Source of the DNA: Polyangiaceae bacterium
Lineage (GTDB): Bacteria > Myxococcota_A > Polyangia > Polyangiales > Polyangiaceae
Length of the DNA: 64,000 bases
Assembly: GCA_025353725.1 (NCBI GenBank)
Contig: JANXOF010000089.1
Span: forward strand, 16,770 to 80,769
Reading direction: 5' to 3'
Positions within the stretch are counted from its first letter, which is position 1; every line of letters begins with the position of its first letter. The position numbers and the translations under genes were made by a program. The notes beneath the pieces were generated by a model, which was not told where the DNA came from, searched no databases, and was given only the letters and a program-made list of their open reading frames with translations. Below, piece after piece: positions 37,620 to 39,518 of the stretch.

Positions 37620-39518
37620 GTGCCACTGAACCAAGCGACCCCGACCCGTGTGCTCGCCCGGGCCTTGTCACGATCTGCATCGATGGCGGCGCGGCGTCTC
37701 TGGCCGCTGGTGCAGCGCGTCAACAAGCTCATCGAAAAGCCATCGGTTCAACCGAGCTGGGCGCCCCAACCGCTGCTCAAACGTCGCGAGCGGACGTTTC
37801 CACAACTTGGGTTTCCGCGTGAGACGGATTCACTGTGCCCGCGCTGCGTGAAAGAGGTTCGAACGGAGATCCTGGGAGGAAAGCGAGACCTTCGCGAGCT
37901 TGTCGACGGTCGACCTGGGGAGATCAAAGCAAACATCGTTGAAAAGGAAATCAACGGCGTTCGCTGTGTCGTCATGGTCAAAGACTGTCCGACGCACGGT
38001 CACTTCGAGGACGTGATGTCGATGGACCCCGAATTCCTTCGACGCTTGGAGAATCTTTATCCGGGCCGGGACTTTCTCGCGCCGTTAACGAAGCTTCGCG
38101 AGCACGGTAGTTCGAGCATCAAGTACGGGCGTGGCTCTGTTTTAACGGTCGACCTGACCAATCGCTGCAACATGATGTGCGACCCGTGCTTTATGGACGC
38201 GAATCAAGTGGGCTACGTCCACGAATTGCAGTGGGAAGAGATCCAGAAAATCCTAGACGATGCGCTCACCGTCCAGCCGCGCCGCCAAATGAGTATTCAG
38301 TTTTCAGGTGGTGAGCCGACGCTAAGTCCGCACTTCCTGAAAGCCATCGAGTACGCGCGTGCCAATGGGTTTTTCGCCGTACAGTGCGCGACGAACGGCG
38401 TACTTTTCGCGCAAGACACTGAACTCGCATTCAAGGCGAAGGCCGCGGGCCTTCGCATGGCGTACTTGCAGTTTGACGGTGTCGACAACGCTTCGAACGC
38501 GCACCGCAAGATAGGTAACCTTTTCGACGTCAAAGTGCGCGCGATCGAAAACCTCCACGCCGCGGGAATCGACGTCATTCTCGTCGTCACCGTGGTGAAC
38601 GGGGTGAATAGCGATCAAGTCGGTAAAATTGTCGAGTTCGCGATTGCCAACGCGGACAAGGTGACCGTCGTGAGCTTTCAGCCGGTGAGCTTCACCGGGC
38701 GCGACGAGGACATCAGCGACGAGCTCCGGGAGAAGCAGCGGTACACGCTAAGCCATCTCGCCCACGATATCCGATCGCAAGCACGAATTACCGAGCCGAT
38801 GCGGGACTGGTTTCCGCTCTCCGCGATGGGTCCGTTTAGCGACCTTACCGACACCATTCTTGGCGAGAGCGCCGATTGGGGCTCAATGAAGTGCGGCTGC
38901 CATCCCAACTGCGGAATCGGTACCGCTATCTTCGTTCACAAGACTACAAGGCAAGCTATCCCCGTGACAGAGTTTCTCGACCTCGAGCAGCTCCTTCACG
39001 ATATTCAAGATATTACCGACGCCGCTCAGGGGCGCGCGGTGACGATCGCCGAGGTCGCACTTGCGATGCTGAAAAATTTCGACGCAACGCGGTCGCCGGT
39101 GAGCTTTCCCGCACTCGTGAAGCAGTTTTTGAGTACGACCGGCGCACGGGGGAAGCAGATCGGCGAACACGAGAGCGATGCGCATGAGTTCGAGTGGCGA
39201 ATCCTCTTCGTCGCGGGTATGTGGTTTCAAGACCTTTTCAACTACGACTTTCGCCGCACGGAAATGTGCATCATTCCTTATGGCACTCAAATGGGTGAGA
39301 TAAGCTTTTGCGCGTACAATACGGGCGTTGGCTGGCGTCAGATCTTAGAAAAAATGAAGGCTACCGCGACGCTTTCGGAGTGGTACCAAAGCAACGGTCG
39401 GCATCCGGTTTACGCGAAGGGACAAGACCTCGCGCTTCCGTTGACCGAAGCCGGTGATGCAACGAGCGGAAACGGTAAACCTCGCGCACGAGTTCGCCTA
39501 AGAGTCGTCGAAACGTGA
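37620..39518 (+). CDS. Radical SAM enzyme, tetraether/membrane-spanning lipid synthase (Tes)-like
   Basis: 632 aa. The radical SAM cluster motif is CNMMCDPC (Cys183, 187, 190), then FSGGEPTLSPHF. Before it is a zinc-ribbon/rubredoxin-like part with CPRC (73-76) and CPTHG (123-127). After the SAM core come KCGCHPNCG (Cys425, 427, 431), Cys550 and Cys564, candidate ligands of further Fe-S clusters. This layout (N-terminal CPxC...CPxHG, CX3CX2C, later Cys groups) is that of the MJ0619/Tes family, which joins lipid tails by C-C bonds to make membrane-spanning lipids. Bacterial members are known. The GTG at 37620 is the upstream start; an internal ATG (MAARRLWPL, residue 22) is possible. It overlaps the MarR gene by GTGA. 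Confidence 0.65.
   Translation: MPLNQATPTRVLARALSRSASMAARRLWPLVQRVNKLIEKPSVQPSWAPQPLLKRRERTFPQLGFPRETDSLCPRCVKEVRTEILGGKRDLRELVDGRPGEIKANIVEKEINGVRCVVMVKDCPTHGHFEDVMSMDPEFLRRLENLYPGRDFLAPLTKLREHGSSSIKYGRGSVLTVDLTNRCNMMCDPCFMDANQVGYVHELQWEEIQKILDDALTVQPRRQMSIQFSGGEPTLSPHFLKAIEYARANGFFAVQCATNGVLFAQDTELAFKAKAAGLRMAYLQFDGVDNASNAHRKIGNLFDVKVRAIENLHAAGIDVILVVTVVNGVNSDQVGKIVEFAIANADKVTVVSFQPVSFTGRDEDISDELREKQRYTLSHLAHDIRSQARITEPMRDWFPLSAMGPFSDLTDTILGESADWGSMKCGCHPNCGIGTAIFVHKTTRQAIPVTEFLDLEQLLHDIQDITDAAQGRAVTIAEVALAMLKNFDATRSPVSFPALVKQFLSTTGARGKQIGEHESDAHEFEWRILFVAGMWFQDLFNYDFRRTEMCIIPYGTQMGEISFCAYNTGVGWRQILEKMKATATLSEWYQSNGRHPVYAKGQDLALPLTEAGDATSGNGKPRARVRLRVVET

Follow-up and report, generated by a model that had tools for sequence, protein, structure and literature searches.

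A bacterial variant of tetraether synthase (Tes) whose cysteines are rearranged, from a Polyangiaceae bacterium

The tetraether synthase Tes of Methanocaldococcus (MjTes; GDGT-MAS, MJ0619; PDB 7TOL/7TOM; NCBIfam model NF045702) is a radical S-adenosylmethionine (SAM) enzyme whose structure report (PMC9433317) describes a rubredoxin-like iron held by C9, C12, C33 and H36, an N-terminal [4Fe-4S] cluster on C73, C77, C80 and a histidine, the SAM cluster, and a C-terminal [4Fe-4S] cluster with a labile Met439 ligand near Tyr459. Which enzyme couples lipid tails in acidobacteria has yet to be agreed in the accounts cited here, Tes homologs and Mss both having been proposed, and PMC11868695 states that experimental confirmation of bacterial Tes homologs is lacking. 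That paper, in which Mss and Ger are the basis for inferring myxobacteria to be producers, was the only one found in the open-access literature searched that treats Myxococcota together with Tes homologs. Here we analyzed a gene at positions 37620..39518 of a 64,000-nucleotide stretch of DNA from a Polyangiaceae bacterium (the window; GenBank assembly GCA_025353725.1, contig JANXOF010000089.1, positions 16,770 to 80,769), whose product is, by its sequence, a bacterial variant of Tes with a rearranged cysteine set; no description of a Tes variant with this cysteine set was found in the same literature. We favor, with moderate confidence, the reading that this radical SAM enzyme belongs to a bacterial side branch of Tes and likely couples two iso-branched fatty-acid tails end to end, which would give iso-diabolic acid-type membrane-spanning lipids.

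Family assignment and cysteine signature

The best match of the window protein among 18950 NCBIfam models was Tes (NF045702; E = 2.4e-97, 326.6 bits, residues 69-579), followed by TrsS (208.9 bits), and the hidden Markov model search thus agreed with the first-pass annotation, made from the sequence alone, on Tes as the nearest known family. However, the curated cut-off of this equivalog model is 450 bits. Full-length members of the clade to which the window protein belongs scored 313-365 bits, and none of the 377 genomes in a sample of the window's phylum passed the cut-off, whereas three Tes-type acidobacterial genes (those behind loci L131, L142 and L079) passed it at 472-589 bits. The best solved structure by sequence was again Methanocaldococcus Tes (7tol; E = 2.3e-63, residues 117-590), to which the window protein is 29-30% identical, and the next was SkfB (8e-9). 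In the comparison of the predicted model with 7TOL the whole-chain fold matched, with 475 of the 493 Tes residues aligned. Pfam assigned a radical SAM domain (PF04055) and an N-terminal zinc-ribbon domain (PF23545).

The CX3CX2C motif of C183/C187/C190, the CPRC and CPTHG unit and the late cysteines C425/C427/C431, C550 and C564, all reported in the first-pass annotation, lie at these residues (Table 1). Its description of them as the layout of the MJ0619/Tes family was correct for the sites shared with Tes, among them the rubredoxin-like CX2C ... CX2H feature (C73, C76, C123 and H126) and the presumed C-terminal cluster cysteines, with the Met439 and Tyr459 equivalents also kept, but it does not extend to two others. 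All four N-terminal [4Fe-4S] ligands of Tes are replaced in the alignment, and in the stretch between H126 and C183 no cysteine was found in 206 of 216 covered clade rows, one in the other 10 and two in none, whereas 122 of 122 covered Tes-type rows had three or four. Conversely, C425 and C427 (Leu and Ser in MjTes) occurred together in 224/224 covered clade rows and in 0/123 Tes-type rows, although Cys at 427 alone was present in 86 of those 123. Structure prediction likewise pointed to the Tes fold, and in the alignment the other cysteine groups fall at the rubredoxin, SAM and C-cluster sites, whereas C425/C427 are additional to the sites of Tes.

These counts refer to 226 clade rows (120 protein-database entries, 77 genome loci and 29 whole-genome loci, with MjTes excluded), which are not independent: at least four genomes occur twice (L043/L130, L035/L083, L068/L121 and L037/L151), and protein entries can stem from the same contigs as loci. 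Residue numbers of Tes are native, the printed chain numbering of 7tol being native + 20 with the offset fixed from C33. As the MjTes piece used starts downstream of its C9/C12, the equivalence of C73/C76 was set by the published motif and the alignment columns. The cysteines at C73, C76, C123 (of the H126 unit), C183/C187/C190, C425, C427, C431, C550 and C564 were invariant in 21 aligned myxobacterial proteins, and, judged from the alignments, the layout is far beyond chance, since 28 other myxobacterial orthologs and 77 loci from named genomes align along the protein.

Because the protein falls under the curated cut-off and has no ligands for one of the three iron-sulfur clusters, both of which are among the defining features tested, we dropped the identity 'Tes', did not file the protein under that name and regard it as part of a distinct bacterial branch. 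It differs from MJ0619 also in an N-terminal extension with a helix. The Tes-type proteins of Bryobacteraceae and other Acidobacteriota (L131, L142 and P0122-P0241) share with it the family, the core motifs and a neighboring tree branch, but have the N-terminal ligands as C/C/C/H in 122/122 covered rows and lack the C425 and C427 pair. Mss resembles it in the reaction proposed, in which (iso-)fatty acyl tails are coupled end to end, and according to PMC13274423 models of Mss superpose on Tes. Thermotoga maritima, which is described as making diabolic-acid membrane-spanning lipids (PMC8788747), was not among the 5 of 14 control genomes that matched the Tes profile, whereas the window protein matches it at 1e-97.

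In a tree of 77 rows (quick mode, with MjTes as the sole archaeal row), the variant formed a clade of 48 rows (support 100) nested in a 60-row group (support 100) with bacterial Tes-type proteins and MjTes, while 17 other myxobacterial relatives lay on the far side. The order at the base is unsure because long branches were flagged at MjTes and L079. The full acidobacterial gene behind L079 (L196, G491:C250) was sister to the variant clade; it keeps the N-terminal cluster motif (CPAGCGLCPGH) and has an equivalent of C425 but a serine at 427, which, as far as sequences can tell, fits a gain of C425 before the loss of the N-terminal cluster. The presence of a cysteine at 427 in many Tes-type rows obscures the history of C427. 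At three loci from other myxobacterial genomes (L062:5279-10094, L061:5013-8184 and L057:2122-5078), Tes-superfamily genes of a different kind stand side by side in twos or threes and have the N-terminal cluster motif; His replaces Met439 in 11 of the 17 myxobacterial genes of this kind.

Table 1. Features of the window protein and its gene, with positions in the window
Feature	Position	Strand	Remark
Tes-like radical SAM protein	37620..39518	+	open frame, 632 codons/aa, GTG start
N-terminal helix, residues 8-37, amphipathic	37641..37730	+	helix in predicted model
C73-x2-C76 (C73-P-R-C76), first half of rubredoxin-like iron site	37836..37847	+	conserved CX2C in place of Tes C9, C12
C123-x2-H126 (C123-P-T-H126-G), second half of rubredoxin-like iron site	37986..37997	+	aligned to Tes C33, H36
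Stretch matching Tes N-terminal [4Fe-4S] ligands (C73, C77, C80, His)	38094..38138	+	reads LREHGSSSIKYGRGS, no cysteine
Radical SAM cluster motif C183-x3-C187-x2-C190 (CX3CX2C)	38166..38189	+	sequence and conserved columns
C425-G-C427-H-P-N-C431	38892..38912	+	C431 = conserved Tes C338 (C-cluster region); C425, C427 extra
M534, equivalent of Tes labile cluster ligand Met439	39219..39221	+	alignment
C550 ... Y554 ... C564	39267..39311	+	C-cluster-region cysteines (Tes C455, C470) and Tyr459 equivalent
MarR-family regulator	39515..40003	+	Pfam PF01047; overlaps stop codon of radical SAM gene by 4 bases

Distribution of the variant and a proposed link to iso-diabolic acid

The variant was present, by score, in 32 of the 377 sampled genomes of the window's phylum: 24 of the 35 in the window's family, 2 in another family of the same order and 6 elsewhere in the class, with none seen outside the class in this sample. 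Among the genes retrieved from this sample, orthologs scored 698-1461 bits against the window protein, compared with at most 129 for 17 further genes of the superfamily. The host genome has one gene of this type, the sole other match at 1e-3 being partial and 27% identical, and Tes-profile searches of three Polyangium genomes returned the variant gene with weaker superfamily matches.

Named genomes were scanned with a degenerate GC-rich-codon pattern for FQPVSFTGR, which is biased to GC-rich genomes and gives no census; at least 118 stretches were returned and 80 loci were examined. The variant accounted for 77 of them (mostly Acidobacteriota, with some Polyangiaceae, a Gemmatimonadales metagenome-assembled genome (MAG) and others), some cut by contig or locus ends and at least four on the same contigs as among the myxobacterial orthologs; the other three (L079, L131 and L142) were of Tes type. 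Plasmid copies of the variant were also considered and rejected: 22 plasmid records matched, all below 60% identity, and because the 22 listed matches are 25-33% identical they are not of this clade.

About half of the sampled Acidobacteriota genomes (145 of 297) had a match at E <= 1e-100, two of which (G492 and G509) barely pass and may be fragments or Tes-type. Within overlapping group samples, identified by the titles of their center loci, matches at this threshold were found in 66 of 80 genomes of the family of Granulicella aggregans (a few of them fragments or divergent copies of 41-47% identity), in 74 of 78 of the class of a Chloracidobacterium MAG and in 45 of 80 of the class of a Vicinamibacterales MAG. 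In Granulicella aggregans M8UP14, Granulicella sp. L60 and Acidipila sp. EB88, nothing but the variant matched the Tes profile at 1e-20; in Granulicella sp. S156, the fourth Acidobacteriaceae isolate searched, the variant was accompanied by two short, weak matches on a different contig.

A survey of 46 strains, as quoted in PMC13274423, found iso-diabolic acid in acidobacterial subdivisions 1, 3, 4 and 6 of seven. Edaphobacter strains contained 12-30% of it (PMC11354219), it is a primary acid of Chloracidobacterium (PMC12816986), and in the strains covered by the cited papers it is mostly ester-bound. Because the branch is widespread in Acidobacteriota, where the membrane-spanning lipid is iso-diabolic acid, we expect an 'iso-diabolic acid-type lipid' rather than a 'tetraether' as the product. 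The proposal of a tetraether or membrane-spanning lipid synthase in the first-pass annotation therefore keeps Tes as the nearest family, but must be qualified by the score below cut-off, the loss of one cluster's ligands and this change of expected product. We equate the four subdivisions with Terriglobia together with Solibacter relatives, Blastocatellia and Vicinamibacteria.

Proposed reaction and competing explanations

As read from the sequence, the parts needed for a Tes-like two-SAM mechanism are kept in the window protein; on present evidence it would work like Tes, and a chemistry common to both is plausible. By analogy with Tes, SAM would be cleaved at the C183/C187/C190 cluster, and the 5'-deoxyadenosyl radical would abstract a hydrogen from the methyl group at the end of one tail. 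The resulting carbon radical would be held in a carbon-sulfur bond to the C-terminal cluster, presumably ligated by C431, C550 and C564, until a second SAM cleavage generated a second tail radical that would attack the stored carbon and form the C-C bond. The same chemistry fits because the iso-branched end of an iso-C15 acid resembles the end of a phytanyl chain. The kept ligand set, the lack of the N-terminal cluster ligands, the two extra cysteines, the predicted fold and the distribution are what the analysis shows directly; we infer the metal content, the substrate (iso-branched acyl tails) and the product (an iso-diabolic acid-type lipid). We would guess that C425/C427 bind metal, either as a fourth C-cluster ligand or as a replacement electron path.

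Several observations weigh against this assignment. The window protein misses the curated Tes cut-off (326.6 vs 450 bits) and is without the N-terminal cluster ligands, and no genome neighbor recurs widely beside the gene. The link to iso-diabolic acid is made by phylum and class rather than strain by strain, with an assumed mapping of classes to subdivisions, and 19 of 80 genomes in the class of a MAG titled Holophagales, which is perhaps poor in iso-diabolic acid, also match at E <= 1e-100. We know of no lipid described for this organism. Separate Tes-type proteins in Bryobacteraceae could make iso-diabolic acid there, and organisms bearing the variant may also carry the bacterial synthase Mss. 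Lastly, as the M439A and Y459F/L variants of Tes are reported to remain active (PMC9433317), the Met439 and Tyr459 equivalents are a family mark and not proof of activity.

The enzyme might instead couple ether lipids to true tetraethers resembling branched glycerol dialkyl glycerol tetraethers (brGDGTs), acting after an ether-forming enzyme such as a PlsA/Ger-like protein of the host. Tes itself is described as acting on ether lipids (PMC9433317), a diether-first route with Tes and PlsAR homologs has been proposed for Solibacter usitatus (PMC10087280), and the host encodes a 1222-aa protein with PF09989 and two PF01869 domains, the latter pair marking Ger in the account of PMC13274423. Zeng and co-workers (PMC8941075) proposed bacterial Tes homologs for brGDGTs, including the one homolog, of 32% identity, that they reported in the brGDGT producer Edaphobacter aggregans, which is probably of the variant type. 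However, the isolates with the variant as sole Tes-profile match are Acidobacteriaceae, a family for which brGDGTs or ethers are reported to be minor beside much iso-diabolic acid, Edaphobacter paludis showed no iso-diabolic acid glycerol ethers (PMC11354219), and the separate Tes-type Bryobacteraceae proteins are natural candidates for tetraethers. We consider a tetraether product quite unlikely.

It is also unlikely, in our judgment, that a lipid-modifying enzyme on the Tes scaffold reaches another outcome, such as ring closure within one chain, thiolation or a side-by-side cross-link. The absence of one cluster and the CxC beside the catalytic cluster could alter the fate of the stored carbon radical, and the radical SAM enzymes Gms (the glycerol monoalkyl glycerol tetraether synthase) and GrsA/B (ring synthases) make other C-C bonds on the chains of the same kind of membrane lipid (PMC11186832). 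Nevertheless, nearly the whole Tes chain aligns with the predicted model, the match of taxa points to a coupled lipid, and Gms and GrsA differ from Tes in domain make-up according to that report. Gms, which has a SPASM domain, and GrsA/B, which probably lack an auxiliary cluster, also differ in this respect from the window protein. An enzyme that does not act on membrane lipids at all, but is a pterin methyltransferase or modifies another molecule, is very unlikely. One source names some relatives 7,8-dihydro-6-hydroxymethylpterin dimethyltransferase, as does Pfam for PF23545, yet the authors of the Tes structure report that they failed to corroborate the earlier pterin findings, judge a pterin in the active site unlikely and describe the pocket as a long hydrophobic tunnel (PMC9433317), in a fold that the window protein is predicted to share; we rejected the database name 'hydroxymethylpterin dimethyltransferase' on these grounds. 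The joining of iso-branched acyl tails remains the reading that we prefer.

Genomic setting and implications

The gene may start either at GTG 37620 or at ATG 37683, and the database copy of the protein (P0002) has 611 residues. The N-terminal helix had a hydrophobic moment of 0.55, compared with 0.23 +/- 0.11 in shuffled sequences, and the same amphipathic trend was seen at the N-terminus of relatives, among the few rows that cover it (7/120, 13/29 and 16/77). Membrane contact of this helix is possible.

Neighboring genes were clustered for the 29 myxobacterial orthologs and the 77 other loci (each at most 8 kilobases long). No family occurred in more than 6 loci, and an operon link to lipids was rejected because no neighbor recurs widely; small genes may be missed because genes were called with a simple open reading frame picker. 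The MarR gene had no counterpart beside the relatives compared, and its overlap with the radical SAM gene is probably incidental. A divergent gene (36828-37577, minus strand) starts 42 bases upstream and encodes 249 aa without a Pfam match, the C-terminal part of which presumably resembles AgmX/TonB-like myxobacterial proteins. An ATP-binding cassette (ABC) transporter block at 29631-34655 (plus strand) comprises an ATPase, a permease, a PF09822 auxiliary protein and one further protein, which we take to be DUF4340-like; the block also lies upstream of the gene in the near relatives L043, L044 and L049, with part of it nearby in L046, and is a synteny block rather than an operon. Downstream, at 40013-42568 (minus strand), a ClpA/ClpB-type double AAA protein (PF07724, PF10431) with a proline-rich linker is encoded, which also adjoins the radical SAM gene in L044 and lies nearby in L033 and L140.

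Elsewhere in the host genome, contig C41 (L193:9260-12928) encodes the 1222-aa PlsA/Ger-like protein, which has two PF01869 activase domains, a pair also described for the ether-forming Ger (PMC13274423). Its gene is overlapped by that of a 631-aa protein without a Pfam match (L193:12925-14820), and from its gene content L193:9260-14820 is a candidate ether-lipid locus of the same genome.

Branched tetraethers, and the iso-diabolic acid from which they are built, serve as records of past temperature and pH. A well-defined clade with its own cysteine signature, which is common in groups with reported iso-diabolic acid and is the sole Tes-profile match (1e-20) in three isolates, turns the search for the coupling enzyme into a single-gene question, and with the variant Polyangia join the candidate producers. 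Searches that require 30% identity to archaeal Tes, as described in PMC11868695, could miss the variant because it is 29-30% identical to Methanocaldococcus Tes. Because the whole clade lives without the N-terminal cluster of Tes, it provides a natural experiment on the role of that cluster, the loss of which, we would guess, suits aerobic hosts. We put forward only tentatively, as a possibility with the odds against it, that the iso-diabolic acid synthase still missing for soil acidobacteria and for Polyangia is this clade: it would form a second line of tetraether synthases whose surface [4Fe-4S] cluster gave way to a CxCx3C site next to the catalytic cluster, perhaps as an adaptation to air, and Polyangia would be an unrecognized source of branched-tetraether precursors.
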